Of a stretch of 64,000 nucleotides of DNA, positions 6,645 through 55,201 are shown one piece after another (within the stretch, counting starts at the first letter, position 1; every line of letters starts with the position of its first letter). The DNA is taken from contig NADL03000006.1 of assembly GCA_002205965.3 (NCBI GenBank), positions 1,054,001 through 1,118,000 of the forward strand, given 5' to 3'. This DNA comes from Kappaphycus alvarezii (lineage: Eukaryota; Rhodophyta; Florideophyceae; Gigartinales; Solieriaceae). A program made the translations under genes and the position numbers. The notes under the pieces were generated by a model, which saw only the letters and a program-made list of their open reading frames with translations, ran no database searches and was not told the DNA's origin.

Positions 6645-7498
6645 TGATAGGGATAAATATATAGAGGATGATAATATTAGAGCTATTTTCTCCAAAACGG
6701 AGGAGTTGCAAGCGACAGGAGTGCTACAGAATATGGTTGAGGGGAAGAGAGGAGAAGAGCAAGGAAGGGGAATCGAAAGGCTACAAGTTACTATAAAAGT
6801 GGAAGGGTCTACCGTCTATGCTCAGGGGCTAGCGTTGAAGAAATTTTTCATAAGTTAGAAGTCGAGTTTCCACTTCCAGGCTTTTTTGTTGTGCATTTTA
6901 AGTTGTCTCCCAACTTGCTTGACCTCTCCCGGAGGAAGCAGTTCACTCAGCTTATATAGACTTTTTTTTGTTAATCATGAAGCCTTGAGGACGCATCCAA
7001 AATGCCATAAAATGCACCCTAGCAAATCATGTAGACTATATAGATCAGCGATAGAATAATTCCAAGATAAATATGTACATCTACTCCTCACAACCGTTAT
7101 CCTCAAGATCAGAAACAAAAAATACTTTAAAATCTCCATGATAATGATGCAGTCCACAAATATTCCTTCGAGTGGATCACAGCTTCCCGTTGTCTCCAAT
7201 TACAATATGTGAATATCACTAAAAATTCCCTTATTAAGCTCCATGACCGGTGCCTCTGGGCATCCCCTCATGCCTCCTTATATACAGTTTCAAACTCTCC
7301 AAATTTGTGACACCTTAGTGTTAATTATGCCAGCGCAGCATCGCTACTGTAAAATGCACAGCATCCATCTATAAATAATTGAAATTAATTTGATAATAAA
7401 GTTACAGCGTAGCCAGCGCTGTATGCCAACTCAGCCAGGCAGCATGCCTGCAGCAAGCGTTGTAATATTTTTTTAGTTCACCAATTTGTCTGACATCA
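6645..7498 (-). repeat. solo gypsy LTR H inside a non-LTR element
   Basis: Read on the minus strand it starts TGATGTCAG and ends with a variant of the family terminus (tttatccctatca). It contains the polymerase II-like 'tctatataagctgagt' segment, a recognisable purine/pyrimidine R-U5 core, and a remnant of the LTR-borne ORF. The flanking pentamers are cgggt (6640-6644) and cggtt (7499-7503), a target duplication with one mismatch. At 854 bp it is shorter than the B-type LTRs. The flanking non-LTR RT sequence is continuous across it. Confidence 0.65.
6990..7199 (-). pseudogene. LTR-borne ORF remnant (copy in LTR H)
   Basis: The C-terminal block of the LTR-borne acidic protein is still visible: SCDPLEGIFVDCIIIMEILK corresponds to SCEPFADICGDCLDSMDILE in element B. 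The acidic middle and the N-terminal block are lost or unrecognisable. This is one of the most diverged copies and cannot be functional. Confidence 0.45.
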
Positions 7499-9288: not shown

Positions 9289-10620
9289 TGATAGGGGTAA
9301 ATCGTCGGGAAGAGAGATTTTCAGAACCTACTACTCCAAGAAGGAGGTGTTGCAAGCTACAAAAGTGCTACCGTGGTATTGTTGAATAGAACAAAATGGG
9401 TTGAGTAAGGATGAAAGTTGAGAGGCCTACAAGCACGTATGGAAGGGGCAGGATCAACCACTGATGCTCTGTGACCAGCGTAGGAAAAGTTTTTCTTGGT
9501 TCTGAAGTTGACTCTCAATTTCCTACTAGTCGGGACTTGGCTTGAAGTTGTCTGCCAACTTGCTTTTCCTCCACAAGGGGAAGCAGTATACTCAGCTTAT
9601 ATAACTTTATGTCTACCCCTAAAGTCTCAAACAAACATACTAAGAGCCATAAAATGCATCAAATGGAATCGTGTGAACGAGAAAGACTAACAGCAGATAC
9701 TATCAGGATAAATATCTAGATTCTTTCCTTAATATCTTAGTTCTCTATATCAGAGCCAAACAGTTCCCCCAGAATATCCTTTCCACCCAGGCAGTCGACA
9801 GAAATATCCGCAAACGGCTCAGAATTATCCATTGCCTCCTGCGAAATATCTAGATCACTGAGGACGCCCCCATCCGGTTCCAGAGTCGGGACCACCTGGT
9901 CCATACTTTTCGGCCCCCTCCCCACTATTCCATCGTTTTCCATGTCTCTTTCTCCCTCCCCATCCTCACCCTCCTCTTCTTCCTCTCTACCTTCTCTTCC
10001 TCTACCTCCTCTTCTTCCTCCTCCTCCCCTGCCCCTTCTGCCTGCTCGAAACAGTTACGGAGGACCCACTCCAGAACTCGTTCCCGGTCTAATCTTTTAC
10101 AATATTCACCGTAGTCAGTTGTATAATCTGCTACCGGGCTCAGAGCGTTGAAGGAATGGCGATATCGGGATGACTTGGCGATGGTGAGGGAAGGGCGGGA
10201 ATTGGTCATGTTGAGGGCAAAAAAAGTGGTGAGCTGATGGAGTAGTTGGTAGCGGGGGGGTAGCCTCGAAGACGTCGACTTCGAACTAAAAGTAGGTCAA
10301 CGTATTCAAACATTTTCACGGCCTTGGACGAAATAAAAATTTGAGGCAATGCCCCAGTTTTCAGTTTGTATGCAACTAGTCCAATAACTAGAAATCTACT
10401 TGATACAATATCGGAACTGAATTTGGAGGACGAATCGGATCACCGGTATAAGGATTCATTTTTTGAAAAAGGATGACCAAAATGCTCAAAGACGGAATGG
10501 AAATGGAGTTGTACAGTGAATTTGGATTTGGGAAAATCTGTTTCATGATTTCGGTCGTAAAGAGAATTGGTGGGAAGAGTTGTTTTTGAAAAATCATGGG
10601 GAGGGAGAAGACAAAAGCTT
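9289..10620 (-). repeat. gypsy LTR E (solo), with acidic ORF
   Basis: On the minus strand this ends with the canonical gatttacccctatca. It contains the R-U5 block, a 'ttatataagctgagt' TATA region, paired inverted gaagttg motifs, and the LTR-borne ORF at 9737-10209. The U3 part just upstream of the TATA box resembles the U3 of element A (shared cataaaatgcat and gtgtgaacgaga segments), while the ORF resembles that of element B, so this LTR links the two types. The outer edge is uncertain. Similarity to old LTR G reaches at least 10620. Confidence 0.65.
9737..10209 (-). CDS. LTR-borne acidic protein (copy in LTR E), frameshifted
   Basis: Two overlapping minus-strand frames make up the protein. 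9925-10209 (94 codons) carries the N-terminal block with a TDYGEYCKRLDRERVLEWVL segment, equivalent to the DDYIRRQTKK-IIEFVRRL block of element B, followed by a Glu/Lys-rich stretch. 9737-9943 (68 codons) carries the C-terminal block with SMDQVVPTLEPDGG and DILGELFGSD. They are in different frames, joined by a short overlap, as expected from one indel in the low-complexity middle. Function is unknown; the acidic hydrophobic C-terminus resembles a transcription activation domain by composition only. Confidence 0.6.
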
Positions 10621-14283: not shown

Positions 14284-14690
14284 TGATCTGCGCAAATTCG
14301 CACACGAAAAAAATCTAGATGAGGACCATGATTGTATACAGTATCGGAATTGGGAAGATATTTTTACAGTTTTTGAATTTGCAAGATATTTTTAATTTTG
14401 GGTGAGTGTGGCAAATTCATCGGTTGATTTTTTCATTTTAGGACACGCTGTCATAGTAGATGTCAGTACAGTTCCAGGTTGTGGGTGATACTACAAGTAG
14501 CTCTGAAAGGTCTATATAATGGCCACATCAATTCCCACCCCTGGCCGATGGGTGGCTGGCATGGGTATGGCACCTAGATATTTACCTTGAGGAAATATCT
14601 CTAATAGTCTCTCTGGTTCACACGATTACCGTGAATGCATTTTATGGTTATTAGTATGTTTGTTTGAGACTTTTGGGGTAGCCAAAAGTC

Positions 14691-14697
14691 TATATAA
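14691..14697 (+). promoter_or_regulatory. LTR TATA box
   Basis: TATATAA in the context aagtctatataagc, conserved in every LTR copy of the family (43965-43971 in element B; reverse-strand equivalents near 6950, 9600 and 35680). It lies just upstream of the strongly conserved R-U5 block and is the likely core promoter for the genomic gag-pol RNA. Confidence 0.7.
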
Positions 14698-14732
14698 GCC
14701 GAGTAAACTGCTTCCTTTAGTGGAGGTGAAGC

Positions 14733-14790
14733 AAGTTGGCAGACAACTTCAAGCCAAGTCCCGAGTAGTAGGAAGTTGAGAGTCAACTTC
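14733..14790 (+). promoter_or_regulatory. tandem hairpins downstream of the LTR TATA box
   Basis: The first inverted repeat is AAGTTG/CAACTT with a 5-nt loop at 14733-14749. The second is GAAGTTGA/TCAACTTC, an 8-bp perfect stem with a GAG loop at 14772-14790. Both would be in the RNA leader if transcription starts after the TATA box, and both recur in the other LTRs with some compensating variation. The role is unknown. Confidence 0.5.
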
Positions 14791-15005
14791 AGACCCAAGA
14801 AAACTTTTTCTTACGCTAGTCGCAGAGCGTCGGTGGTAGACCCTGCCCCTTTTATACTTGCTTGTAGCTTCTCAACTCTCTTCTATATACACTCCCTTTT
14901 GTTCGTTCAACAATACCACGGTAGCACTTTTGTCGCTCGCAACACCTCCTTCTCAGGGTAATTGGTTCTGAGGATCTCTTCCCCCGCCGATTTACCCCTA
15001 TCATT

Positions 15006-21039: not shown

Positions 21040-21059
21040 CGAGTCGGGACGTTCGTCTT

Positions 21060-21072: not shown

Positions 21073-21788
21073 TGATGTGCGCAAATTCGCACGAAAAAAT
21101 CTAGATGAGGACCATGATTGTATACAGTATCGGAATTGGGAAGATATTTTTACAGTTTTTGAATTTGCAAGATATTTTTAATTTGGGTGAGTGTGGCAAA
21201 TTCGTCGGTTGATTTTTTTCATTTTAGGACACGCTGTCATAGTAGATGTCAGTACAGTTCCAGGTTGTGGGTGATACTACAAGTAGCTCTGAAAGGTCTA
21301 TATAATGGCCACATCAATTCCCACCCCTGGCCGATGGGTGGCTGGCATGGGTATGGCACCTAGATATTTACCTTGAGGAAATATCTTCTAATAGTCTCTC
21401 TGGTTCACACGATTACCGTGAATACATTTTATGGTTATTAGTATGTTTGTTGAGACTTTTGGGGTAGCCAAAAGTCTATATAAGCCGAGTAAACTGCTTC
21501 CTTTAGTGGAGGTGAAGCAAGTTGGCAGACAACTTCAAGCCAAGTCCCGAGTAGTAGGAAGTTGAGAGTCAACTTCAGACCCAAGAAAACTTTTTCTTAC
21601 GCTAGTCGCAGAGCGTCGGTGGTAGACCCTGCCCCTTTTATACTTGCTTGTAGCTTCTCAACTCTCTTCTATATACACTCCCTTTTGTTCGTTCAACAAT
21701 ACCACGGCAGCACTTTTGTCGCTCGCAACACCTCCTTCTCAGGGTAATTGGTTCTGAGGATCTCTTCCCCCGCCGATTTACCCTATCA
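21073..21788 (+). repeat. element A 3' LTR, 716 bp
   Basis: From TGATGTGCGC to ACCCTATCA. Nearly identical to the 5' LTR at 14284-15003; the differences are mainly run-length changes (for example ttttgtttgag versus tttgttgag) plus a few substitutions. Confidence 0.9.
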
Positions 21789-22219: not shown

Positions 22220-23430
22220 TGAACGATCCATGCCCTCGAAAGTCATTTCCAAAATAGCCATCCCCCCCTAAACTCTATTCCCCTACTCCCTTTCGGATCT
22301 ACTGACCGCGAGGACTACCTGCGCCGGCAAACGAAGGAAAAGGTGATCGAACTCGTGCGTCGCCTTTTTATTGAGGATGAGGCGGAGGAGGTAGGTAAGG
22401 GGCGGATTGGGACATCCAGAAGGGAGCTGGGGAAACCTTCGAGAGTGGGTAGCCCCTGAATTGGTCTACGAGGTTAATAAAGAGGAAGACGGGGAGGATG
22501 AGGAGGATGAAAGGAGGAAGAGGAAAAAAGGGGAAGAGGAGGATGATGAAGACGAGTACGAGTTGGATGAGGGAACAGGGGGCATGGAAAGTGTTGGAAT
22601 GGTGGAGCCTGGACTAGAGAGTATGGAACAAGTGGTGCCGACGCTGGAACCGGATGGAGATTGATAGAGGTTGGAGAAGGAAGGTGGGGGGAATGAAAGG
22701 AAGTTCGCCAGCTTTGGCCAGATTTTACTTGGAGGTGCTCAAGTCGCAACTTAATAGAACTATTTCGCCACACTTGCACTCACTCTTACTCTAACTAAAC
22801 CCTAGCCATCTGAGCGGGACACTCAATACTACCAATCATCACAAGACATGACATAGTAACACAACTGCACGTAACCACACAATCACTACATGTACCCAAA
22901 TTCACAACACAACTCTTACATGCAACGACATGTATACACGCAACTACTGTAACCGACAACACTGTACTTGACTCATCACCATAGTGCATCAACACCATCA
23001 AAATGTACTGTATGTCCACATACATACCTGTCCACTCTGTACTGCACAGCCGTACTGTACAGCATTGCCATATGTACTAGCTACACGTGTACGCCAGAAC
23101 AACCCACTAGAGCCACAACACTTGTACGCACCACGTTGCATATGAGCATTTGCAGTAGCCAATCAGAAGCCTATTTCACGTTGAGTTTGAGATGAGGCGC
23201 ATATGCGCTTTCCAACGGAGCCCTCCAAAACAGCCCATGCTCCTCTGCACTTTTGGTTTTCAGAGACAGCACAGGGTCCACAGCCAATAGAGATATCTTT
23301 AGTTGTTTAGATATCTCCTAGTAGGGAATAGAGAGCTATGAGCCGTTCGCAGATATTTACGGGGACTGCTTGGACAGCATGGATATTTTAGAGGAGTTGT
23401 TTGGATCTGACTTAGAGAATGGGAACTAAG
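22220..23430 (+). pseudogene. LTR-borne acidic ORF (copy in LTR C2), interrupted
   Basis: The start ATG lies about 109 bp after the TATTTAAA box. Frameshifts break the N-terminal block, which still reads DREDYLRRQTKEKVIELVRR. In the frame 22407-22664 the middle is one long Glu/Asp/Lys stretch that runs in frame into GGMESVGMVEPGLESMEQVV, showing that N-terminal, acidic and C-terminal parts belong to a single protein. The 628-bp insertion then separates it from the C-terminal block (23295-23430) with SMDILEELFGSDLENGN. It is not functional as it stands. Confidence 0.65.
22662..23289. mobile_element. unclassified 628-bp insertion in an LTR ORF
   Basis: The sequence is flanked by GAGAT on both sides (22657-22661 and 23290-23294), and the LTR is continuous if it is removed. 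It starts tgatagagg and ends gccaata, has no terminal inverted repeat, and lacks the TG...CA ends of an LTR. Its middle is rich in CA and AC steps. No coding frame is convincing. It could be a solo LTR of an unrelated family or a non-autonomous element. Confidence 0.55.
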
Positions 23431-27169: not shown

Positions 27170-28490
27170 TAGATGTTAAGGGGGTGGAGAGTAGTGGGCG
27201 TGAAAGGTAGGTGACTGCTCTAGTTGTCATCTCTAAAATGGCACAATCTAGCACTTATGCTCTGCGACTGGCGTAAAAACAAGTTATTGGGTCTGAAGCT
27301 GACTATCAACTTCCTGCCTACTTGAAACTGGATATGAAGTTGTCTGCCAGCTCATGTAGGAAGCAATTTACATATGTTTTGTAGACTTTTTTCCAACCTA
27401 AATCTCGATAAAACTACTAGGAGTATAAGTAAAATAGGAAAAGACATTACGTTAACGCAAAGCGTTTGGAAAAATATACTAGAAAGAAACTAAATCAAGC
27501 TACTTCTCAAAATATTCATCGTCTATCATCGTCTAGATCAGACCTTAGTACATCCCTTAAGATATCAGAAGTATACATGTAATCCTCACATATACCTGTG
27601 GATCGGCTGCATTTTCTACCCCTTCCTACAAGGAATAAAGCCCACTTGAATCCTATCCAACCAGCTCATATCTGGGACCATTTCTTCCAATCAGTTCACT
27701 CTTTTTTCTCCCATATGACCCGGTCGAGACCATATTTTTCATCTGCGGACTTCCCATCTTCCTTTCCTTCCTCAGTTTCCAATTCTCCTTCTTCCTTTTC
27801 TCCAGTTCGTCCTCAGACTCCTCTCTTCCTTCCAGTAGACCAGCTCAGGGGCCCTGCATTACTCGAAGCACTCCTCTACTTCACCATCCTCCTCGCCCGA
27901 GTCCCCATACTGATTCCTATGCTTCAAAATCTACCAGGTGACGACCAACGAACTCCGTCAAACGTTTCCTGGTTTGGCGACGGAGGCAGTCTTCGTCGTC
28001 TTTTGGGCCAGAAGGGACTAAAGTAGATACGGTGATGGAGCGAGGGTGACGGGTTTTGCAATGGGTCGACAAGGAGCGAATCGATGCATGGTGGCTGCCT
28101 AAAGGGTGGGAGTGAATTGACGATTTTTTGTTGTTGTAGGACGTTGAGAAATTTTAGGTGGCACCCGACGTGTTTACATAGAACCAAACGGTTCAAATTA
28201 AAAGGCTAGCTGAATCAAAGAAGTAGGCGAGAACTGATCTTGTAGTGGGATCTAGTGAGAACCGCCTCGAAAGGGTGATTTATGGCGAAATCATGTCTTC
28301 AAATATTGTTTATGGAAAAGAACATTTAGGGGTGAAGAAGATCAAATAAACGGAGAGTAGTAAACGAATTATCATCAAAGGAGAAGGCAGTCGCTCGTAA
28401 AAAGAGAACGGGAAAATGAACGGTATAAAGAAAAATGTGAATTTCATGGCGCAACAGAAAAAGAAAGTGGAGTAGGGAAAAAGGAAACGG
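27170..28490 (-). repeat. gypsy LTR D' (solo, U5 end missing)
   Basis: On the minus strand it matches the split LTR at 42080-42743 plus 51897-52632. Shared features are a pyrimidine-rich U3, tttatttgatc(t/c)tcttc, a gtc(a/g)ggtgcc(a/g)cc segment, the acidic ORF, and the R block with its paired gaagttg motifs (27290-27345). The last ~130 bp (U5) are not present, so the LTR is truncated at about 27170. It is much diverged from the element B LTR. Confidence 0.6.
27840..28090 (-). pseudogene. LTR-borne acidic ORF remnant (copy in LTR D')
   Basis: On the minus strand a degenerate frame reads DYEDCLRRQTRKRLTEFVGR, clearly the DDYIRRQTKKQIIEFVRR block of element B. It is followed by VEECFE, a stop, and CRAPELVYW, matching ESFEEWLAPELVYE. 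The C-terminal block is not recognisable. Stops make it a pseudogene. Confidence 0.55.
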
Positions 28491-35274: not shown

Positions 35275-35371
35275 TGCTGCAAAAAAAATTAAAAAAATAT
35301 CAACTGCAAGCGGACCTAATACTTCACAACTCTATTACCTCGGGTGCAACCCACTCCACAAGAGTACCAAA

Positions 35372-36815
35372 TGATAGGGATAAATCGGCAGGAAAAGAGA
35401 TCCTCAGAACCAATTACCCCAAGAAGGAGGTGTTGCAAGCGACAAAAGTGCTACCGTGGTATAGTTGAACGAACAAAAAGGAGTGGATAGGGAAGACAGT
35501 TGAATGGGCTACAAGTAAGTATGGAAGGTGCAGGGTCTAACACTTATGCTCAGTGACCAGCGTAAAATAAATGCTTCATGGGTCTGAAGTTGACTCTAGC
35601 TATTTGGGACTGGGCTTGAAGTTGTCTGCCAACTTTCTTGATCTTTCCATGAGGAAGCAGTTTACTCAGCTTATATAGACTTTTGGCTACCCCTAAAGTC
35701 CGAACAAAACTACAGAAGGAACCAGGAAACGTACAGAAACAATTTGTGTGGATGATATACTCTAAACAAAAGATACTTAAGAAACTAATAATCAATGAGG
35801 TCCTCTTATTTCCCATTCTCTAACTCAGATCCAAAAAACTCCTCTAAAATATCCATGCTGTCCAAGCAGTCCCCACAAATTCCGCGAGCGGCCTATAGCT
35901 CTCTATTCTTTCCTGGAAGATATCTAAAGTACTAAAGATATCTCCATCCGGTTCCAGCGTCGGCACAACTTGTTCCATACTCTCAATTCCATGCCCCAAC
36001 AGTCCAGCACTTTCTATGCCCCCTGTTCCGTCACCTCCTCCTCCTCCTCTTCCTCCTCTTCCTCCTCTCCATCCTCCTCTTCCTCCCCATCCTTCTCCTG
36101 AGTCTCGTACACTAGCTCAGGGGCTAACCATTCCTTGAAGGACTCCCCGCTCTCCTCCTCGACTATCTCAGTCTCATCCTAACTTAGCTCCTTTGCCTCT
36201 CCTTCTCTGAATAGGTGGCGAACGAACTCGATGATTTTCTTCTTAGTTTGCCGCCGGATGTAGTCGGCGGCATCGGTTGGCCCGTAGGCGGCGAGACGGA
36301 GGCCAGTGATGGGGCGGGAACGGCGGTTTTTGGAGATAGGGACAGAAGGGCGATTTGACGTCATATTTCTGGAAAAAGGTTGAGCGGGGTGTGTGGGGGA
36401 AGAGCATTGATGAGAAAAATGATCGGGACGTTTAAAACTTGTAATAATGGGGTTTAAATAGGCTCCCAGGACAGGTTCTATGGATTAGGAATAGGTGAAA
36501 TAAATCTGTAAGGGATTTTGTAGTAGCGTATTTGCGCCCTTTTTCTCAAAAAAGCGATTTTGGAGGAGGACGTAAGCAAAAAGGGAAAAAACTTGATTCT
36601 GGATCGATTCAGAGGGGTAGATACAGAATAAAAATATCTACATAAAATGGAAGTAAATTTGGAGAGGACCGCGGTAATGATAAGCGAGGTTCAGGGAGGA
36701 CGAGGAAGGACCGGAACTATAAGCAAATTTGGACAAGGAGAGGTAGTACAGTAAACTAAAGGCCTGTAGATGACGGCGACAAAAAAAATCCGTTCTTATC
36801 AGCACGCGCGTAACA
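35372..36815 (-). repeat. element C 5' LTR, 1,444 bp, with acidic ORF
   Basis: On the minus strand it starts TGTTACGCGCGTGCTG and ends gatttatccctatca. It has a TTTAAATAGG box (reverse of 36463-36472), the acidic ORF (36364 to about 35820), TATATAAGCTGAG (about 35680), the tandem inverted repeats and R-U5. Its outermost U3 matches solo LTR C2 and differs from element B. Confidence 0.8.
35820..36364 (-). pseudogene. LTR-borne acidic ORF (copy in element C)
   Basis: The first 61 codons from 36364 are intact and very like element B: PTDAADYIRRQTKKKIIEFV. A substitution then gives TAG where B has a sense codon (agttag versus agtccg). Beyond the stop the acidic stretch and the C-terminal block can be followed to about 35820, where the final Glu-Leu-Phe-Gly motif region has been altered. 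Confidence 0.65.
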
Positions 36816-38844: not shown

Positions 38845-38852
38845 TATTTAAA
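38845..38852 (+). promoter_or_regulatory. TATA-like box of the repeat F gene
   Basis: TATTTAAA in the context cccctatttaaaccc, 144 bp before the ATG at 38996, followed by a C/T- and CA-rich leader. The same box with the same flanking bases (gcctatttaaaccc) precedes the LTR-borne ORFs. Confidence 0.5.
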
Positions 38853-38995
38853 CCCTCGGCACTCGTTCCAAAGCCTGACTCCCCCTCACAACACCTCCTC
38901 ACAACATCTTCCTCACTTCTTCATCCCTCTCGATTCCTCTTCCCGCAAAAGTAACTCCTTCCCTCATTAATACAAAACCGCAAAAGACACTAACC

Positions 38996-39301: not shown

Positions 39302-39469
39302 GCCTCTAGCAAATGTAAATATTTACAAATCGTGAAATCGTCATCTTGCTCTACAATACGGCACCAGGTGATTATTCGCAGGTGTCAGTTTGCACTCAAT
39401 TCGGAACGGGACGGAAAATCGTTACTAGTTCTAAGTCACGAAAGTGTGCAGAGAGTATTCAAAGATCAA

Positions 39470-40497: not shown

Positions 40498-40498
40498 G

Positions 40499-42079: not shown

Positions 42080-42743
42080 TTCCCTCCCATTACTTTTTCT
42101 TCTTCACTTCATTTTCCTTTGTTTCTCCCTCCACTTTCTTTTTGTTGTTATTGTCTTTCTTTTTATTTACGGGACGAAATTTACATTTCATTCCGTTCCT
42201 TTTATGTGCGATTGCCTTCTCCAGTCGCAGAAATTCTTCGTCTTCTCCATTTATTTGATCCTCTTCGACTCCAAATATCTTTCTTCATAATCAATATTTC
42301 TTCACGTAATTTTCGCCATAAACCATCCTTTTGAAGGCGTTCCCACTAATTTCCACAACAAGACCAATTTTTGCCCACATTTTGATTCAAGGGGTCTGCA
42401 GATTTGAATCATTTGATGCTACTTAAACCCGTCAGGTGCCGCCAAAATTTTATCCACGTCCTTACAACACCAAAAACATGACAATCCACACCCTTCTTGG
42501 CAGCCGTCATGCAGAGAATATCCCATTCTCGCCCGAATTCCAAATCCGGTCATCCTCGTCCCATCATTGTCTCCCCTTTATTCCCCTATGTCCCCACCGA
42601 CGTAGAGGACTACCTCCTTCGCCAAGCCAGGTAGTGCCGGACGGAACTCGTTGCTCTTCACATGGTGTATATCGAATCATGGAACGAGGTTCGGGGGACT
42701 CGGAAGATTTGGATGGTGATGCGGGGAAGTGCTTCAAGGAGTG
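42080..42743 (+). repeat. gypsy LTR D, 5' part, cut by element B
   Basis: Matches LTR D' on the opposite strand at 28490-27870: a pyrimidine-rich U3, then the start of the acidic ORF from about 42479. It is cut at gcttcaaggagtg by element B, and resumes after GAGTG at 51897. The two parts together give an old, diverged LTR. Confidence 0.65.
42479..42743 (+). pseudogene. LTR-borne acidic ORF (copy in LTR D), first half
   Basis: Starts at an ATG (42478-42480) in the usual position. A frame reads VPTDVEDYLLRQAR, the equivalent of GPTDADDYIRRQTK, followed by a stop. The last codons before element B, GKCFKE, match GESFEE of the intact ORF. The second half continues beyond element B with IPKLVHGIEEEEA at 51903, matching APELVYEAQEDEE. 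Confidence 0.6.
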
Positions 42744-42857
42744 TGTAATACAAAAATGGTCCTCCCCCTCATTTAATACAGGAAATGGTCCTCCCTTCAC
42801 GTAATACAGGAAATGGTCCTCCCTTCACGTAATACAGGAAATGGTCCTCCCTCGTGT
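42744..42857 (+). repeat. 28-bp tandem repeat in U3
   Basis: Units start at 42775, 42803 and 42831 with the core aatacaggaaatggtcctcc, preceded by a divergent first unit at the LTR start. The same array is at 50358 and, shorter, at 53752. Such arrays in U3 often act as enhancers, but that is an inference. Confidence 0.7.
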
Positions 42858-43111
42858 AATCCAGCAACCTACAACGATCCCGCCCTAACTTCTCCAACCG
42901 TCATTTCCAAATTTACTTCCATTTTATCTAGATATTTTTATACTGTATTTAACCCTCTGAATCGACCCCGAATCAAGTCCCTTTTCCCTTTTAGCTTACC
43001 TCCTCCTCCAAATTCGCCTTTTTTGAGAAGAAGGGCGCAAATGCACTATTGCAAAATCCCTTGCAGATTTATTTTACCTATTCCTAATCTATAGAACCTG
43101 CCCCGGGAGCC

Positions 43112-43119
43112 TATTTAAA
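43112..43119 (+). promoter_or_regulatory. TATA-like box of the LTR-borne ORF
   Basis: TATTTAAA, 107 bp before the ATG at 43226, conserved at 50729-50736, 54090-54097, 22104-22111 and (reversed) in the element C LTR. It is separate from the TATATAA that drives the genomic RNA, 853 bp further downstream. Confidence 0.6.
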
Positions 43120-43225
43120 CCCCTTTATTCTAAGTTCCAAATGCCCCGATCATTTTACTCATCACCCCTCCCCCCACACACCCAAAACACCCTACATTGC
43201 CTCCTGTTCCCCAACGTCTATCACA

Positions 43226-43837
43226 ATGAGCAACCTTCGCCCCTCTGTCCCTATTTCCAAAAACCGCCCTTCCCGTTCCATCAATGGCCTTCGTCTCGCC
43301 GCCTACGGGCCAACCGATGCCGACGACTACATCCGGCGGCAAACAAAGAAGCAAATCATCGAGTTCGTGCGCCGCCTCTTCATAGAAGAAGAAGCGAGGG
43401 AGGTAAGTCCGGGAGAGGCTGAGAAGGTCGAGGAGGAGAGCGGGGAGTCCTTCGAGGAATGGTTAGCCCCTGAGCTAGTGTACGAGGCTCAGGAAGATGA
43501 GGAGAGGAGGATGAGAGGATGAGGAGGAGGAGAGAGATGAGGAGATGAGGATGAGGAGGAAGGAGGAGGAAGGAGGAGGAGAGAGAGGAGAGAGGAGGAG
43601 GAGGAGGATGAGGGAACAGGGGGCATGGAAAGTGTTGGACTGGTGGGGCCTGGAATAGAGAGTATGGATCAAGTTGTGCCCACGATGGAACCGGATGGAG
43701 ATATCTTTAGTAGTCTAGATATCTCCCAGGGGGAAATAGAGAGTTGTGAGCCATTCGCAGATATTTGTGGGGACTGCTTGGACAGCATGGATATTTTAGA
43801 GGAGTTGTTTGGATCTGATTTAGAGAATGGGAAATAA
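43226..43837 (+). CDS. LTR-borne acidic protein, element B 5' LTR (one frame break)
   Basis: Two frames. 43226-43522 holds the N-terminal ~85 residues, with PTDADDYIRRQTKKQIIEFV, an IEEEAREVSPGEAEKVEEES segment and APELVYE, then runs into a GAGGA-repeat. 43625-43837 holds the C-terminal block: MESVGLVGPGIESMDQVVPT, LDISQGEIESCEPFADICGD, and SMDILEELFGSDLENGK at the end. Copy C2 shows that the parts belong to one frame; here indels in the repeat separate them. Total about 190-200 residues, highly acidic, no signal peptide. Alternating acidic and bulky hydrophobic residues at the end look like an activation domain. Function unknown. Confidence 0.65.
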
Positions 43838-43964
43838 GAGGACCAAATTAATTGTTAGTTTCTTAAGTATCTTTTGCTTAGAGTATATTGTCCACACAAA
43901 GTATTTTTATGCATTTCTTGGTATCTTCTGTAGTTTTGTTCGGACTTTAGGGTAGCCAAAAGTC

Positions 43965-43971
43965 TATATAA
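43965..43971 (+). promoter_or_regulatory. LTR TATA box, element B
   Basis: TATATAA in agtctatataagctgagt, same position relative to the R-U5 block as in element A. Confidence 0.65.
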
Positions 43972-44280
43972 GCTGAGTAAACTGCTTCCTCATGGAGAGG
44001 TCAAGCAAGTTGGCAGACAACTTCAAGCCAAGTCCCGAGTAGTAGGAAGTTGAGAGTCAACTTCAGACCCAAGAAAACTTTTTCTTACGCTAGTCGCAGA
44101 GCGTCGGTGGTAGACCCTGCCCCTTTTATACTTGCTTGTAGCTTCCTCAACTCTCTTCTATATACACTCCCTTTTGTTCGTTCAACAATACCACGGCAGC
44201 ACTTTTGTCGCTCGCAACACCTCCTTCTCAGGGTAATTGGTTCTGAGGATCTCTTCCCCCGCCGATTTACCCCTATCATT

Positions 44281-44298
44281 TGGTACTCTTGTGGAGGG
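44281..44298 (+). promoter_or_regulatory. primer binding site candidate, element B
   Basis: TGGTACTCTTGTGGAGGG, two bases after the LTR end, identical to that of element A. Confidence 0.55.
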
Positions 44299-44367
44299 GG
44301 TTGCACCCGAGGTATTCGAGTTGAGCAGTAGTAAGGAACACTTCGGGGGGATTTCTTTTCGGTAATC

Positions 44368-45324
44368 ATGGATCTCAACGCTGCTCGTATAACGTTCACA
44401 GGGGGCAAGACTGAAGACGTTGAGGAGTTTCTTTACACATATGTCAACGTTGTGATGCGAGAGAAGGGCGATGAAGAGAAGGCCGCAAGTATCTTCGCCT
44501 ATCTTCATGGTGACGCAAAGCACAAATATAAGTCCAAGTTTATCGACGGGTGGTCTCTTAACGGGAATGGGCGTAACTTCGGTGAGGTATGTGAGTGGCT
44601 TGTGAAAGAGTATGCTAAGGAGGTAGAACCAGATGAGATGATTCGTACCGCCATAGAGGCCCGGCTCAACTTCGACGATTTGTTAAGCTCATTGGTGTAC
44701 TTGTGTGATCTTTATGAAAAGGCTGGGTTCAACGCCCAAGCCAAGTACGGAATGCTGCGTAAGGCGGCTATGGGGGATAAGCGGCTCTCCGATTTCCTCC
44801 TCATCAAGGGCCCTCACACTTTTGATGAACTGAAGGGTACCATAGTAGAATTTGTCAAAAATTCGGAGACGTTTCAGTCACTGAGTGAGGTACCGAGGGA
44901 AACCCGCACATCGATGTCTATCGTACATCCTGAAAAGAATTATCAAAGGCCGGCTACTAGTGCAGCGGCATTAGAATCTGTCAGGAGCGATGTCAAAAAC
45001 TTGGAAGAAAGGTTGGAAACCCGATTCGATAATCGACTTGACATGATAACCTCGCAGTTGGAAAGCCTTACTCTTACCATTAAGAAGAACCAGTCTGGGG
45101 CCCCTAAGGCCGCAGAAGTCTGTTCTTACTGTCACAAGCCTGGACACTTTGCAAACAGGTGTCCTGATAATCCACATAGAAACACTCGTTGTGCAAAGTG
45201 CGGTCGATATGGGCATCATGAAAGTAACTGCTGGTCTAAAGACAACAGAAGAGCAAATTTATCGGAAGCAAGGAGTGAGTCAGGACCAGAGGTGAAAATC
45301 TTACAAGAAGGGATCAAAGGTTGA
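44368..45324 (+). CDS. gag: Gag, element B
   Basis: 318 codons, the same protein as Gag of element A up to about residue 305: capsid-like helical region, coiled coil (200-240), CCHC knuckles at Cys252-Cys255-His260-Cys265 and Cys275-Cys278-His283-Cys288. The last residues differ because of small indels. The stop TGA (45322-45324) overlaps the pol frame, which is open in the -1 frame from 45279. No standard X-XXY-YYZ slippery heptamer is obvious in the overlap. Confidence 0.9.
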   Translation: MDLNAARITFTGGKTEDVEEFLYTYVNVVMREKGDEEKAASIFAYLHGDAKHKYKSKFIDGWSLNGNGRNFGEVCEWLVKEYAKEVEPDEMIRTAIEARLNFDDLLSSLVYLCDLYEKAGFNAQAKYGMLRKAAMGDKRLSDFLLIKGPHTFDELKGTIVEFVKNSETFQSLSEVPRETRTSMSIVHPEKNYQRPATSAAALESVRSDVKNLEERLETRFDNRLDMITSQLESLTLTIKKNQSGAPKAAEVCSYCHKPGHFANRCPDNPHRNTRCAKCGRYGHHESNCWSKDNRRANLSEARSESGPEVKILQEGIKG

Positions 45325-45785
45325 CGGATGCCGGTAACGTATCCATCGCTGAAGAGATTAGTCAAGTCAATGTGACAAAAAGGGATGGGGAAGGGAACAT
45401 TTTATCGAAGAAACCTAGGCTAGAGTATGGAATGCTGGAGCATATCCCAGCACCTGTACCTCCTCGAACCAAGAGGTCTGATCAAGTTGTTCCAGGAGTG
45501 GGAGTCACTCCGGCCAAGAAGACGAAAAAGAGTAAGAAAGTTAAGAGTATCTCTAAGGACGTACTAGAGTATGTGAAGAGGTACAATTTGGTGGCTGAGC
45601 TTGCATCGGCCCCAACTGGGATAACGTTTGGTCAACTTTTGAGGGGCGACGCAGAGGATGCGAGAAAAGAACTCAAAAAATTATCAGGTCTAATAAGTCC
45701 GCTAAGGGTAAGAAACTGTTTCTTCAATCGGCCTCGACAGCACCAAGACGTCTTAAGCTGGTACCAGTCAAAGTATTGGGTATGA
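45279..45785 (+). CDS. pol: Pol N-terminal segment, element B
   Basis: Open in the -1 frame relative to gag, with no ATG at the junction, so it is expected to be made by frameshift from gag. It contains a basic stretch (PAKKTKKSKKVKSI) and a VLEYVKRYNLVAELAS segment. One A is missing from an A run at about 45680 compared with element A, which shifts the last 35 codons out of frame. No catalytic motif here. In the parent form it would lead directly into the protease. Confidence 0.7.
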   Translation, partial: VRTRGENLTRRDQRLTDAGNVSIAEEISQVNVTKRDGEGNILSKKPRLEYGMLEHIPAPVPPRTKRSDQVVPGVGVTPAKKTKKSKKVKSISKDVLEYVKRYNLVAELASAPTGITFGQLLRGDAEDARKELKKLSGLISPLRVRNCFFNRPRQHQDVLSWYQSKYWV

Positions 45786-47353
45786 AAACCCAAGCTCTCT
45801 TCGATTCGGGTGCTGTTCCAAACCTCATTTCAGAAACTTTGGTGACAGATCTAGGTCTCGAAATTACTCCAACGACTCGAAAAATAACTGTAGCGGATGG
45901 AACCGTCTCAAAATGCATGGGCACTGTTGACAAGGTTTCCGTGTTCTTTGGGGACTCTAAAGTTGATGTAGACTTTCTTGTCATGCCGGATCTCCCTTTC
46001 GATGCAATCATTGGCTGCCCTACCATGGAAAGACTAGGGACATGCATTGACTTGGGCAACCAAATGGTTTCAGTTAATATTGACGGCAGAACCGTGAAGA
46101 TGCCCCTGGATTTCGACAAAAGCACGCATCCTGAAGATTTAAAAGAAACGGACAGTGAAGATTTCACTTCTAGCTATGACAGCGAAGATTCGGAACCAAC
46201 TAACACTTTCGGAAGTGGAAAAGGGTACCCTCGGGGGTTAATGAACATGGCATGGGACGATTATGATTCCGGGTTTGAAACAGATGACGACTGGGATTCT
46301 AGGATAAGTTTGAAACCCGAATGTGTTTCTTTTTGCGATGATATCGAATCAAAGGACAGAATTCGGAGCATGAAAGAAGATTACCTTTGCAAAGAAAATA
46401 AGAATACGTCGAATTCCATATATGAAGATGTGAGCACGACGGAAGAGGTCCTTCAAAATATTGAGGTTGAGGATCAAGAAGAAAAAGGGCGCCAAATGGC
46501 AGAAATCCAAGGAAAAGTGCAGCACCTTCCCGCCCCCGCCTCACTGAAAATATCCGACATGTTAACATCTTCCGAAGTAATTGCATGGAGCGTTTCAGAT
46601 TTAAGACAAGCAAGTGTACCGGTTACTCACTCGTTCGAACTTACCGACACTCAACCGATTTACCACAAGCCTAGACGTCAACCGCCAAAATATGACCAAT
46701 TTATCTCAGAAAATGTTACAAGTATGCTGAAAAATGATATTATTCGACCAGTTTCATCCCCATGGTCGTTTCCAGTTGTGGTCGCACCAAAGAAGGATGG
46801 AAAGCTGCGTTTTTGCGTCGATTACCGACAACTGAACCAGAGAATGATACCCGATCGATTTCCGATTCCGAACATGGAGGAGATCCTCGAGGACCTGAAG
46901 GACGGGAGATATTTCACCTCAATTGACCTTTACACTGGCTATTGGCAGATTCCATTGGATGAAAAATGTAAGGAAAAAACAACCTTTACCAGCAAAGCCG
47001 GTACGTTCAGGTTCGAAGTGATGCCTTTTGGTCTCATGAATGCACCAGCTACATTCCAAAGAATGATGAACGAGGTTTTGAAAGGACTTCCATTCGCAAG
47101 AGTCTATATCGATGATGTCGTCATATTCTCAGAAACATTGGATCAGCACATCTCGCACGTCAAGACAGTTGTGGAGAGGATATCGGAGTATAGCTTGAAA
47201 ATTAAGTTGAGCAAATGCTTCTTTGCGAAAACTTCTATCCAATTACTCGGTCATATCGTCGACCAAGAGGGAATTAGAGTGGATCCAGAGAAAACGAAAA
47301 AAATAAGTTGGCACCAAGGCCCGCTTCAAAGACGGAGGTCCGAAGCTTCTTAG
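45776..47353 (+). CDS. pol: Protease and reverse transcriptase, element B
   Basis: 525 codons in one frame. A retropepsin-type protease begins at once with ALFDSGAVPNLIS (active-site Asp10-Ser11-Gly12) and ends around DAIIGCPTM. An acidic spacer of about 150 residues follows (many Glu/Asp/Ser). The RT starts near residue 300: FCVDYRQLN at 346, MPFGLMNAPATFQRMM at 416 and the catalytic YIDD at 444-447, then LLGHIVDQEGI. A missing A at about 47305 ends the frame in the thumb. All expected catalytic residues of the palm are present. It copies the RNA genome into DNA inside the particle. Confidence 0.9.
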   Translation: MGMKTQALFDSGAVPNLISETLVTDLGLEITPTTRKITVADGTVSKCMGTVDKVSVFFGDSKVDVDFLVMPDLPFDAIIGCPTMERLGTCIDLGNQMVSVNIDGRTVKMPLDFDKSTHPEDLKETDSEDFTSSYDSEDSEPTNTFGSGKGYPRGLMNMAWDDYDSGFETDDDWDSRISLKPECVSFCDDIESKDRIRSMKEDYLCKENKNTSNSIYEDVSTTEEVLQNIEVEDQEEKGRQMAEIQGKVQHLPAPASLKISDMLTSSEVIAWSVSDLRQASVPVTHSFELTDTQPIYHKPRRQPPKYDQFISENVTSMLKNDIIRPVSSPWSFPVVVAPKKDGKLRFCVDYRQLNQRMIPDRFPIPNMEEILEDLKDGRYFTSIDLYTGYWQIPLDEKCKEKTTFTSKAGTFRFEVMPFGLMNAPATFQRMMNEVLKGLPFARVYIDDVVIFSETLDQHISHVKTVVERISEYSLKIKLSKCFFAKTSIQLLGHIVDQEGIRVDPEKTKKISWHQGPLQRRRSEAS

Positions 47354-48226: not shown

Positions 48227-49240
48227 CTGAGAGATTCTGGTGGCCCGGTATCCATAAGGACGTCTATAACTTCGTGAAAAGCTGCGACAACTGCCAAAAA
48301 TTCACTCCAATACGGAAGTATAAGACAACTCTAAGTTTTCCAGTTTCCGGTCTCTTTGAAACCTTCTCAATTGACTTCGCGGCCCGTTCAAGGAAACTTC
48401 TTCCGGAAACAAATATCTCCTTATAGGGGTGGAACATCTTACTGGATGGCCAATAGCAGTTGCAGTCGAGGAGGCAAATGCTGAGGTGGTACTGAGATTC
48501 ATCGAAAAAGAAATAATTGAACCGTTTGGTCTTCCAAAAAGGATCATCTCGGATAACGCCCTTTGTTTTACTGCAACTTCACTGCTTCGTTTTTTGGAAG
48601 AGAAAGGGATTCAGCTGAAGACCGTTCTCGCATACGCTCCTATGTCCAACGGGAAAGCGGAGAGGATGGTTGGAACCATCAAACGAGCAATATCGAAAAC
48701 TATGTTGGAGAATGAAATCCAGTGGGAAGATGCCTTACCAAAAGTGTTATACGGCTACCGTCGAAGAAGAGGAAGAAATGGACGCTCACCATTCGAGCTA
48801 ATGTACGGAAGGGCTCCTAGAATGTTACAGAGAGACATGGAAACAAATATTATCGATGAAGAGAGTAGGGAAGTTGAACTACTGGCCACCGAAGGCTGGA
48901 GATCACACCGCGCGCTAACACAGACAAGAAATAAGGATGCAGAACCTGCAGTCAGAACCTTTTCAGTTGGCTCTAAAGTACTTGTAGTACATGGAAAAGC
49001 AATGCAGCAGGCTGTGAAGTGGCCGGCCTTCCAAACCAAGTACTCGAACCCTTGCATCGTCACGGAGGAAAGACACCCGCACTATCAGCTCTGTTCAAGC
49101 TCAGGGAAGAGATCAAGGAGGGCCATCCATGCACGTCGTCTGGTCCCTTACCATCAGAGGCCTGAAGAATTCCTTCTCACACAGGACTATGCGCAACCAC
49201 GGGGCATACTCATCTTTAACTATAGAATGATTCCTATGGG
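48196..49240 (+). CDS. pol: Integrase, element B (two frames)
   Basis: 48196-48426 has the second half of the zinc domain (CDNCQKF) and the first catalytic Asp (SIDFA). A missing G at about 48384 shifts the frame. 48429 onward holds the rest: Asp of IISDNA, the Glu 36 positions later in NGKAERM, and the GPY/F-like C-terminal region. Integrase inserts the DNA copy; the 5-bp target duplication fits this enzyme class. Confidence 0.85.
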
Positions 49241-49278
49241 AGGAAAAAGGGCCTGGGAATGGATCATCTCGGTTACGC

Positions 49279-50324
49279 GGGACTACTACGAACTCCACGT
49301 AATCATCCATTTCTACATTAATATATGCCTATGTTTTCGTACGTTGAACGGACCATTGCTACCTGAAGAAGATTTCCGACTATTAATAAGAGTTCTATTT
49401 TCATTCCAAAACGGAAGGTTCACGGAAGCAGGTCCAGAGTTTGTGGAGGTAATATATCATTACTCTATAGGAAGATATGGAATGGTAGCTGCTGGAGACT
49501 TGTCGCAAACGTATCTGAATATTATCCGTCCAATTTACGTATTTCTCAAGAAAACAACCAGGACGTGCGACTGAGAGGTTACGCCTTACCCCCGGATATG
49601 GAATACAGGCTGGTCCCGTATCCTCTATGGGAACCTTACGTTTCTCCGCCACAAATTGGGAACGTTGGAGGCGGCGAGGATCCTCCTGAAGCAGTGATGA
49701 TGACCAGAGGAGGACCTTCAGGAGACAACAACCCGCCCAGAAGAGGTTCCGGTCGTCCCCCGAGGACCTCGTGCAGGTCCCAGTACGTCAGGAGCTGGTC
49801 GCGGCCATTCATCGGGACCGTCCACCACAACTTCATCTCTAGCTCTGCTTCACAACCATGCACAGCATACAGTCGGAAGAAGAAGATTATCTTTTTGGCT
49901 GCGCAATATCTCCGAGGATGCGAACGATGCGCAGGTCATTTCTTATTTCATGATAAGCATCTGTTTATGTTTTAGGGCGCTACATGGACCGCACTTATCT
50001 TACGAAGATTCGTTCTTGATGATGCGCGTCTTCTTTTCTTATCGACATCCATTCCTCCGGCATCTTCCAGAAGAGTTTGCATATCACATATATTTTTTCA
50101 CTCTTGGAAGATTCGGAAGAGTCACGGAAGAAGAATGTATTCAACCCCACCTCGATGTGATCAAACCAATATATGAGGCTATGCTACAAAGTGAGGTACC
50201 AGTAATGCGAACCTACTTTTTAGAGCATCATATTGGTAATCAGTTGCATCCGTACCCGTTTGAGAGACCATACATCTTATCAATAAGACAGCGAACACTA
50301 ACGGAAGCAGAAGAAGAGCAGTGA
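49279..50324 (+). CDS. duplicated tail domain of Pol, element B
   Basis: Unit 1 (about 49279-49625) and unit 2 (about 49915-50280) flank an Arg/Gly/Pro/Ser-rich linker. A 72-residue core aligns without gaps and 31 positions are identical by my count. Shared landmarks are ICLCFR, Gly-Pro, Glu-Asp, Arg-Val-X-Phe-Ser, Ile-Tyr, Gly-Arg-X-Gly, and Pro-Ile-Tyr. The frame is broken at about 49555 (two extra A) and 49762 (two bases missing), but each unit is open. 49950-50324 ends at TGA near the polypurine tract. No match to chromodomain or envelope motifs. Each unit begins with a hydrophobic stretch of about 14 residues that is probably a buried helix. Confidence 0.75.
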
Positions 50325-50344
50325 CGACCCGGGACGTTCGCCTT

Positions 50345-50357
50345 GAGAAAGGGGGCG
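50345..50357 (+). promoter_or_regulatory. polypurine tract, element B
   Basis: GAGAAAGGGGGCG immediately before the TG of the 3' LTR. Confidence 0.7.
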
Positions 50358-51896
50358 TGTAATACAAAAAATGGTCCTCCCCTCATTTAATACAGGAAAT
50401 GGTCCTCCCTTCACGTAATACAGGAAATGGTCCTCCCTTCACGTAAGACAGGAAATGGTCCTCCCCTCGTGTAATCCAGCAACCTACAACGATCCCGCCC
50501 CTAACTTCTCCAACCGTCATTTCCAAATTTACTTCCATTTTATCTAGATATTTTTATACTGTATTTAACCCTCTGAATCGACCCCGAATCAAGTCCCTTT
50601 TCCCTTTTAGCTTACCTCCTCCTCCAAATTCGCCTTTTTTTGAGAAGAAGGGCGCAAATGCACTATTGCAAAATCCCTTGCAGATTTATTTTACCTATTC
50701 CTAATCTATAGAACCTGCCCCGGGAGCCTATTTAAACCCCTTTATTCTAAGTTCCAAATGCCCCCGATCATTTTACTCATCACCCCTCCCCCCCACACAC
50801 CCAAAGCACCCACATTGCCTCCTGTTCCCCAACTTCTATCACAATGAGCAACCTTCGCCCCTCTGTCCCTATTTCCAAAAACCGCCCTTCCCGTTCCATC
50901 AATGGCCTTCGTCTCGCCGCCTACGGGCCAACCGATGCCGACGACTACATCCGGCGGCAAACAAAGAAGCAAATCATCGAGTTCGTGCGCCGCCTCTTCA
51001 TAGAAGAAGAAGCGAGGGAGGTAAGTCCGGGAGAGGCTGAGAAGGTCGAGGAGGAGAGCGGGGAGTCCTTCGAGGAATGGTTAGCCCCTGAGCTAGTGTA
51101 CGAGGATCAGGAAGATGAGGAGGAGGAGGATGAGAGATGAGGAGGAGAGAGGATGAGGAGGATGAGGATGAGGAGGATGAGGAGGAGGAAGAAGAGGAGG
51201 AGGAGAGGAGGAGGAGGAGGAGGAGGAGGAGAGGCAACAGGGGGCATGGAAAGTGTTGGACTGGTGGGCTGGAAAGAGAGTATGGATCAAGTTGTGCCCA
51301 CGATGGAACCGGATGGAGATATCTTTAGTAGTCTAGATATCTCCCAGGGGGAAATAGAGAGTTGTGAGCCATTCGCAGATATTTGTGGGGACTGCTTGGA
51401 CAGCATGGATATTTTAGAGGAGTTGTTTGGATCTGATTTAGAGAATGGGAAATAAGAGGACCAAATTAATTGTTAGTTTCTTAAGTATCTTTTGCTTAGA
51501 GTATATTGTCCACACAAAGTATTTTTATGCATTTCTTAGTATCTTCTGTAGTTTTGTTCGGACTTTAGGGGTAGCCAAAAGTCTATATAAGCTGAGTAAA
51601 CTGCTTCCTCATGGAGAGGTCAAGCAAGTTGGCAGACAACTTCAAGCCAAGTCCCGAGTAGTAGGAAGTTGAGAGTCAACTTCAGACCCAAGAAAACTTT
51701 TTCTTACGCTAGTCGCAGAGCGTCGTGGTAGACCCTGCCCCTTTTATACTTGCTTGTAGCTTCCTCAACTCTCTTCTATATACACTCCCTTTTGTTCGTT
51801 CAACAATACCACGGCAGCACTTTTGTCGCTCGCAACACCTCCTTCTCAGGGTAATTGGTTCTGAGGATCTCCTCCCCCGCCGATTTACCCCTATCA
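50358..51896 (+). repeat. element B 3' LTR, 1,539 bp
   Basis: Same organisation as the 5' LTR, with tandem repeat, TATTTAAA (50729-50736), ORF, TATATAA and R-U5. The main differences from the 5' LTR are in the GAGGA-type repeat (51110-51235) and single-base run lengths. Confidence 0.9.
50844..51455 (+). CDS. LTR-borne acidic protein, element B 3' LTR (one frame break)
   Basis: Second copy, with the N-terminal block in 50844-51140 and the C-terminal block in 51153-51455. The latter frame enters through the Gly/Arg reading of the GAGGA repeat, then reads MESVGLVGWKESMDQVVPT (a few residues are lost versus the 5' copy), and ends SMDILEELFGSDLENGK. Because the 3' LTR has the same TATTTAAA promoter and no gag downstream, it could be expressed independently of the genomic RNA. 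Confidence 0.65.
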
Positions 51897-53751: not shown

Positions 53752-55201
53752 TGTAATACAAAAAGTGGTCTCCCCTCATGTAATACAGGAAATGGTCCTC
53801 CCCTCATGAATACAGGAAATGGTCCTCCCTTCGTGTAATCCAGCAACCTACAACGATCCCGCCCCTAACTTCTCCCACCGTCCTTTCCAAATTTACTTCC
53901 ATTTTATCTAGATATTTTTATACTGTATTTAGCCCTCTGAATCGACCCCGAATCAAGTTCCTTTTCCCTTTTAGCTTACCTCCTTTCCAAATTCGCCTTT
54001 TTGAGGAAAAGGGCGCAAATGCACTACTGCAAAATACCTTGCAGATTTACTTTACCTATTCCTAATCTATAGAACCTGCCCCGGGAGCCTATTTAAACCC
54101 CTTTATTCAAGTTCCAAATGTCCCTGATCATTTTAACCATCACCCCTCTTCCCCCACACACCCAAAACACTCTACATTGCCTATCATTCCCCAACCTCTG
54201 TCAAAATGAACAACCTTCGCCCTCGCCCCCATCACCAAAACCGCCCCTCTCGCCCCATCAACGGCCTCCGTCTCGCGCCTGCGACCAACCGATGCCGACG
54301 ACTACATCCGGCGACAAACAAAGAAGCAAATCATCGAGTTCGTTCACCGCCTCTTCATAGAAGAAGAGGCGAGGGAGGTAAGTGAGGATGAGACTGAGAA
54401 AGTCGAAGAGGAGAGCGGGGAGTCTTTCGAGGAATGGGCAGCCCCGGAGTTGGTCTACGAGGTTAAGGACGAAGAGGAGGAAGAGGAGGATCAGGATGGG
54501 GATGATGGGGGGTCGATGAGGAAGACGATAGGGACGACGATGAAGACGACGATGATGAGTCACAGGAAGGTAGGGAAGGGTTGGAATGGGGGAATGTATG
54601 CATCAAGTTGTGCCGACGATGGAACCGGATGGAGATATTTTTAGTAGTCTAGATATCTCCAGGAGGGAATAGAGAGCTGTGAGCCATACGCGATATTTGT
54701 GGGACTGCTTGGACAGCATGGATATTTTAGAGGAGTTTTTGGATCTGATTTAGAGAATGGGAAATAAGAGACCAAATTGATTGTTAGTTTCTTAAGTATC
54801 TTTTGCTTAGAGTATATTGTCCACGCAAAGCATTTTTATGCATTTCCTGGTATCTTCTGTAGTTTTGTTTGGACTTAAGGGGTAGCCGAAAGTCTATATA
54901 AGCTGAGTAAACTGCTTCCTCCTTGAGAGGTCAAGCAAGTTGGCAGACAACTTCAAGCCCAGTCCCAAATAGTTAGGAAGTTAGTAGTCAACTTCAAACC
55001 AAGAAGCATTTATTTTATGCTAGTCAATAAGCATAAGTGGTAGACCCTGCCCTTTCATACTTGCTGGTAGCCCACTCAACTGTATTCCCTATCCACCCCT
55101 TCCTGCTCGTTCAACTATACCACGGGAGCACTTTTGTCGCTCGCAACACCTCCTTCTTGGGGTAATTGGTTCTGAGAATCTCCCCCGCCATTACCCTATC
55201 A
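53752..55201 (+). repeat. solo LTR, B type (B3)
   Basis: TGTAATAC...CCCTATCA, 1,450 bp, with the tandem repeat at the start, TATTTAAA (54090-54097), a broken acidic ORF, TATATAAGCTGAG (about 54895) and R-U5. Flanks are cattg (53747-53751) and catta (55202-55206), a target duplication with one mismatch, so it is a solo LTR left after recombination. More diverged from the element B LTRs than those are from each other. Confidence 0.85.
54205..54766 (+). pseudogene. LTR-borne acidic ORF (copy in solo LTR B3)
   Basis: The ATG is at 54205 and the N-terminal residues MNNLRP resemble MSNLRP of element B, but deletions shift the frame early. In other frames the DDYIRRQTKKQIIEFVHR block and the acidic stretch (VYEVKDEEEEEEDQDGDD) can be followed, as can the end with DILEEFLDLI in the place of DILEELFGSD. 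Not functional. Confidence 0.6.

Follow-up and report, generated by a model that had tools for sequence, protein, structure and literature searches.

An accessory ORF lying wholly within U3 was found in the LTRs of at least three families in the genome analysed here (336.0 Mb, 884 contigs), and it almost certainly codes for a protein kept by purifying selection. The reading we prefer, with a probability of roughly 60%, is that the product would be an LTR-encoded nuclear regulator acting in trans, an accessory gene of one Ty3/gypsy superfamily in this genome. The starting point was a window, i.e. the whole stretch of 64,000 nucleotides that was analysed, in which the ORF occurs in both LTRs of a young Ty3/gypsy element (element A, 42744–51896, TG...CA ends, TSD GAGTG). 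Its features in window coordinates are:

42744..44278, plus strand: 5′ LTR of element A, 1535 bp, TG...CA; TSD GAGTG at 42739–42743
43112..43119, plus strand: TATTTAAA box upstream of the LTR ORF, in the 5′ LTR of element A
43226..43480, plus strand: open N block of the LTR ORF, starting with the ATG at 43226; basic, with a single predicted helix
43481..43624, plus strand: acidic GAR/GAT microsatellite tract (Glu/Asp codons); stops in this copy, first TGA at 43520–43522
43625..43837, plus strand: C block of the LTR ORF, acidic/hydrophobic; TAA at the end
43964..43971, plus strand: TATATAAG box, presumed promoter of the genomic RNA; R would start shortly after it
44368..45324, plus strand: gag-like ORF of element A with weak zinc-knuckle matches
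45599..47353, plus strand: protease and reverse transcriptase frame of element A
48375..49574, plus strand: integrase of element A with an unannotated C-terminal extension
50358..51896, plus strand: 3′ LTR of element A, 1539 bp; N block 50844–51122, C block 51246–51452; TSD GAGTG at 51897–51901

Element A is assigned to Ty3/gypsy by its paired LTRs with a TSD and by the order gag, protease, reverse transcriptase, integrase. Pfam matches were obtained for RVT_1 (2.4e-35), Asp_protease_2 (4e-11) and, 3′ of the reverse transcriptase, rve (7e-9), while the zinc knuckle of the gag-like protein stayed below the cut-off (0.001–0.019). The host is probably a red alga of the florideophytes, judging by the integrase: of its 37 matches a single one carries a name, Chondrus crispus (47% identity, 58% of the query covered). 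A fungal host, considered at first, was dropped on this result. The two LTRs of element A differ by 8 mismatches and 26 gap positions, and an older related LTR (42479+51903) was split by the insertion. Two further details of element A were noted. In the region 48375–50324 the integrase is followed by a pair of related segments without annotation, each about 100 aa long, with a motif of the ICLCF... type and no Pfam match; protein P0002 (593 aa) has the same pair. The beginning of the A-type U3 carries direct repeats with 28-bp spacing (42710–42879 and 50324–50493), possibly factor-binding sites.

Three parts make up the ORF: the N block is basic, the microsatellite tract in the middle acidic, and the C block acidic and hydrophobic. 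The two blocks keep their order and strand in the LTRs at 42744–44278 and 50358–51896 and in the solo LTR at 53752–55201. At 43226–43837 it is contained entirely in U3, between the LTR start at 42744 and the TATATAAG box at 43964, with R predicted to start downstream. In each LTR of element A the N and C blocks are in matching frame, and an ATG opens the N block (43226 and 50844). The preliminary description had taken 43226–43837 as one intact gene; this is ruled out by the stop at 43520–43522 and by further stops in the acidic tract.

Further copies in the window were located by tblastn, using two pieces of the 43226 copy as queries:

53752..55201, plus strand: solo LTR; N block 54206–54479 frameshifted, C block remnants
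35366..36784 (ends approximate), minus strand: LTR of element C; N block 36089–36364, C block 35809–36017
22268..23423, plus strand: E-type LTR ORF; N 22268–22435, C 22584–22661 and 23292–23423; an insertion splits the ORF
9740..10209, minus strand: F-type LTR ORF; N 9985–10209, C 9740–9943; blocks in different frames
27522..28057, minus strand: G-type LTR ORF; N 27914–28057, weak C 27522–27626 (E 0.009)
2615..3061, plus strand: decayed H-type copy; N 2615–2767 with a stop, C remnant 2997–3061
7125..7250, minus strand: C-block remnant alone
42509..42631, plus strand: N-block remnant in the LTR that hosts the insertion of element A

The N block matched at 50844 (E 5e-58), 36364 on the minus strand (5e-42), 54228 (5e-35), 22268 (4e-16), 9985–10209 on the minus strand (2e-8) and 27914–28057 on the minus strand (3e-8). 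The C block matched at 9740–9943 on the minus strand (5e-26) and also at 22584, 23292, 36017 (minus), 51246 and 54574. Ten LTR copies with the ORF had been described in the window. Seven of these are clear and three have to be reduced to decayed remnants, namely 2576 (N piece with a stop, E 0.001), 6990 (C piece only, E 0.001) and 42479+51903 (N piece, E 0.001, and a faint C remnant). Every window copy that was translated is interrupted by stops or frameshifts, and none is open throughout.

Genome-wide the element is very abundant, with at least 150 places obtained for each of three queries; the lists may overlap, and the candidate numbers come from a loose first screen. The C block of the 9740–9943 copy (F-type) gave 6047 candidates, of which 150 were scored, all with E <3e-25; the N block of A gave 6546 candidates and the E-type N block 4609, with 150 scored in each case. 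Our F sample comprises 80 of the 150 scored places, the first 40 leaning to long frames and the next 40 taken from the remaining top rows. The A sample was taken from among the best N-block matches (47 rows, 45 distinct places), and 8 of the 10 E loci were picked for long frames. Open N-to-C frames of full length occur in all three families, and most full-length products, if counted from the first conserved ATG, measure about 190–225 aa. In the F sample, which leaned long, an ATG frame runs through both blocks in 23/80 copies (162–226 aa, the shorter ones mostly with inner-Met starts), and 25 of the 150 scored F candidates have an open frame of at least 180 aa. Among A-type places 12/45 are open from N to C (182–212 aa); stops fall before codon 90 in 3/47 rows and in or after the acidic tract in 32/47. 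By reading, the open frame continues from N into C in six of the ten E loci, a set mostly chosen for its long frames.

The preliminary description had claimed a conserved protein-coding gene, against which a dN/dS near 1 in both blocks would speak. Codon models for three families bear the claim out, with omega at 0.25–0.29 in the N block and 0.35–0.49 in the C block. Thirteen open copies were entered and 11 passed the filter, with a slight bias because open copies exclude stops; omega was 0.252 for N (0.287 with kappa) and 0.352 for C (0.494 with kappa). An omega of 1 was rejected with kappa fixed at 1 (2dlnL 52.0 for N, 21.7 for C) and also with kappa scanned over a grid for the null (N 44.0, p 3e-11; C 10.1, p 0.0015). 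In pairwise comparisons of the N block, families A and E gave dS 2.2, dN 0.30 and omega 0.14, and between A and F the synonymous sites are saturated (pS 0.80–1.01, pN 0.41–0.46). Omega of the N block was 0.56 for A–C, 0.40 for A–D and 0.38–0.97 for single F-group pairs; the high values in some F pairs are expected, as copies decay after insertion. The C block gave 0.12–0.19 for A–F and 0.30–0.61 within F.

The same constraint is visible among the 80 F copies. Variants common to at least four copies are biased towards third codon positions (positions 1/2/3: N 5/13/17, middle 4/10/18, C 12/17/23), and singletons are nearly flat (N 40/44/43, middle 37/23/28, C 53/46/54). Shared variants in pseudo-codons of the flanks are nearly flat as well (16/21/23 and 40/34/37). 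For N plus middle, shared variants (9/23/35) differ from singletons (77/67/71) with p 0.0011, and the nonsynonymous to synonymous ratio is 38:29 for shared versus 168:47 for single variants (p 0.0009); both p values are optimistic, as related copies are not independent, and it is the C block of F, not N plus middle, that served as search query. Pairwise pN/pS between F copies was 0.44–0.78 in the ORF frame, depending on block and distance, compared with 0.58–1.12 in the flanks and 0.62–2.13 in the other two frames, most values off frame and in the flanks being 0.75–1.4. Inherited differences are thus constrained and private ones are not, as would be expected of a gene that works while the elements are active and evolves neutrally after insertion. 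Both omega and the codon positions of the shared variants rule out an ORF arisen by chance or from a microsatellite.

The preliminary description had further proposed that the coding sequence outlasted the surrounding U3. This holds on the upstream side: between the window A copy and a single F copy, the 200 nt preceding the ATG aligned no better than shuffles (z 0.9), as against z 5.5 for the N block and 23.8 for the C block. Downstream, the stretch from the C block to TATATAA reached z 7.7 and that from TATATAA to the LTR end z 46, so that R-U5 is kept better still. Despite the loss of upstream alignment a box recurs in front of the ORF in the A, E and F families, in agreement with the earlier statement that the ORF has its own TATTTAAA box. 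In ORF-bearing LTRs of the window TATTTAAA is located at 43112, 50729, 54090, 22104 and 36453 (minus strand), and it precedes the ATG by 100–125 nt in 45/45 A places. TATTTAA was found 55–110 nt before the ATG in 46 of the 57 F copies with a recognisable start (23/80 omitted), compared with 0.6% in shuffles, and upstream of the ORF in 10/10 E loci. A TATA-like motif is present in the stretch matching TATATAAG in 67/80 F copies. Judged by these positions, the ORF is quite probably driven by a promoter of its own, most simply the TATTTAAA box. Outside those LTRs TATTTAAA occurs in the window at 4497, 5070, 11624 and 38845. The last two of these sites lie in two copies (11406–13254, 38620–40504) of a dispersed repeat family with several orientations and up to 95.6% identity, which also includes 36963–38226.

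The predicted protein was characterised from six open copies (198–214 aa). The net charge of the N block is +2 to +4, that of the middle part −25 to −50 over 43–84 residues, and that of the C block −14 to −17, except for one 101-aa piece with −28. Hydrophobic residues are interspersed in the acidic region: in four A and E copies, 39-aa windows of the C block have a net charge of −11 to −12 with 7–8 W/F/Y/L, and in two F copies −8 with 6 and −6 with 9, so that the activation-type composition is weaker there than in A and E. AlphaFold2 predicted one confident helix in the N piece of the window copy (residues 31–53, pLDDT about 87; elsewhere low, mean 63) and a mostly extended C piece with a short helix at 55–66 (low confidence, mean 62). 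No DNA-binding domain was recognisable in Pfam, PHROG and PDB sequence searches or in the low-confidence single-helix model. Searches of Pfam, PHROGs, PDB sequences and 5.8 billion proteins gave no match of known function, and a full-length profile found nothing at E ≤ 0.01 among the 8000 best candidates scored. A single protein matched the LTR ORF, P0001, with 60 aa on a 941-base contig (68% identical over 42% of the query); judging from this match the gene may exist outside this genome.

From these properties a mechanism can be proposed. The accessory gene lies wholly in the U3 of the LTRs, with its ATG, its stop and the TATTTAAA box upstream. As U3 is absent from the 5′ end of the genomic RNA, the gene would have to be expressed on its own. 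The genomic RNA contains the ORF only at its far 3′ end, and a separate transcription start would thus be needed, for which TATTTAAA is the obvious candidate; transcription of the ORF would start most simply at this box. The encoded protein would be small, for the most part disordered and presumably nuclear. Its basic N-terminal helix may serve for docking or DNA contact, an acidic linker follows, and the C-terminus, both acidic and hydrophobic, is of activation-domain type. Acting in trans, it might raise transcription from LTRs of the family or relieve their silencing. For a function as regulator of transcription or silencing, suggested by composition, we see about even odds.

More tentatively, an entire superfamily of gypsy elements in a red alga may have acquired a retrovirus-like regulatory circuit, in which U3 contains a self-promoted gene for a transactivator or anti-silencer. 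Every LTR, including solo LTRs, might then be a mobile promoter with its regulator, and ORF-less relatives might live off it in trans. Solo LTRs are usually thought to be inert. If the protein is a transactivator, they would amount to regulator genes scattered over the genome, with ORF-deleted elements as natural cheaters, and trans-regulation as well as parasitism between elements would be directly testable.

A rather doubtful alternative, though the most probable of the rivals, is a counter-defence factor: an acidic protein that binds SUMO or chromatin and blocks silencing by the host, or one that mimics histones or DNA. It would fit the strongly acidic middle part of the six open copies, and the middle part in the F family contains VIVISDSSDEDEE, which to our mind resembles a SUMO-interacting motif and of which a remnant is seen in the H copy. 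Against it, VIVISDSSDEDEE is absent from the A and E copies read, and a pure acid mimic would not need conservation of a hydrophobic C block.

A natural ORF-minus relative of element A is present in the window, inserted into an older E-type LTR (element B, 14284–21788):

14284..15003, plus strand: 5′ LTR of element B, 720 bp; ends F-type-like, ORF segment missing
21073..21788, plus strand: 3′ LTR of element B, 716 bp; also without the ORF

The internal region of element B is 98% identical to that of A, and its own LTRs are 98% identical to each other. To the ends of F-type LTRs they show 90% and 82% identity, and their R-U5 is closer to A (95%). The A-type N and C pieces gave no match by tblastn in the LTR of element B. 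Element B spread without the ORF, so the ORF is dispensable in cis. The spread of element B and the broken tracts in many young copies would be natural if the protein acts in trans, as in our preferred reading. These data also bear on a structural or replication accessory, such as a chaperone on the Gag side or an integration-site tether in the particle, which we consider unlikely. Like many retroelement accessory proteins, one with a basic N helix and an acidic tail could attach to nucleic acid and chromatin. Yet an accessory of this kind is hard to reconcile with the spread of an ORF-less element with nearly identical gag-pol, and the ORF, placed in U3 behind a TATA box of its own, is separated from gag-pol expression. 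A further ORF deletion was observed elsewhere in the genome at locus L129 (G000:C520:57402-67401), a head-to-tail array of 4.4-kb units that are 99.96% identical, possibly a real tandem or an assembly artefact. Its units combine an F-type LTR with an A-like LTR stretch that has lost the ORF, the deletion running from within the N block as far as R.

The frame across the acidic tract differs between families. In A-type copies the C frame relative to N shows no preference (17/17/13 of 47 rows, p 0.39). The F sample, which leaned long, is biased to in-frame copies, with 46/80 in frame and 24 and 10 in the other frames; anchors were gapped in 6 A and 8 F copies, so a few frames are possibly miscounted. 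The full product is therefore out of reach for most A copies as assembled. Slippage of the tract may outpace transposition of the elements, or errors of the long-read assembly may concentrate there; the excess of gap positions over substitutions in the LTR pair of element A fits both alike. A random A-type frame would also be expected if the N and C blocks were two small proteins, each with an ATG, or two exons joined by splicing across the tract, which we regard as distinctly unlikely. A near-conserved Met (MES/MEN) starts the C block, and GTAAGT (43403) is kept in 42/45 A places, though these are young copies. Residues before this Met (DEG.G) are, however, also conserved in frame, and both the F-type frame retention and the full-length open frames of three families count against two proteins. 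As a splice donor GTAAGT at 43403 was rejected, by reading, because it is absent from copy C and conserved coding sequence continues beyond it. That the blocks are a conserved DNA regulatory sequence such as an enhancer, open by chance and with no protein selected, would suit their U3 location, the microsatellite nature of the tract with its random A-type frame and the DNA alignment of A and F from the C block to TATATAA, but is very improbable, because amino acids are kept between A and F while synonymous sites saturate, and a conserved non-coding enhancer is ruled out by an omega well below 1 and the third-position bias of shared variants.

To our knowledge, genes wholly inside LTRs are almost confined to mouse mammary tumour virus (MMTV) and very unusual outside a few animal retroviruses. 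The Sag gene of MMTV is a protein gene in U3 of the LTR, outside gag-pol-env, and is expressed separately. The ORF described here resembles it in layout, being placed inside U3 apart from gag-pol-env and presumably expressed separately; it differs in host kingdom and element type, and Sag is a membrane superantigen whereas the present product is an acidic/basic, probably disordered protein. Tas/Bet of foamy viruses and Nef of lentiviruses are encoded by ORFs that overlap the 3′ LTR; Tas has an internal promoter and transactivates the LTR. These are likewise accessory or regulatory genes reaching into U3, but they overlap U3 only from outside, whereas here the whole gene is in U3 and thus in both LTRs and in solo LTRs. 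LTR-contained genes as such are already known from MMTV Sag; what seems new is one in a Ty3/gypsy retrotransposon, belonging to no named protein family. A literature search for ORFs in LTRs, in which subscription papers were thinly covered, retrieved none in Ty3/gypsy LTRs. In the plant elements Retrosat2, RIRE3 and RIRE8 an ORF0 is located upstream of the gag-pol ORF1; in the parts of that report available to us it is likewise an additional ORF, of unknown function, carried by elements with long LTRs, and evolves faster than gag-pol, but is not placed in the LTR (PMC3485330). The LTR subfamilies of the Podospora element crapaud resemble the present ones in differing mainly in U3 and in recombination among LTR variants, and differ in that, as far as the accessible portion of the report goes, U3 is short and divergent (< 200 bp) and no ORF is described in it (PMC10787394). 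The LTRs analysed here belong to an element other than a retrovirus, and they contain a gene that selection has maintained while synonymous sites became saturated between families.
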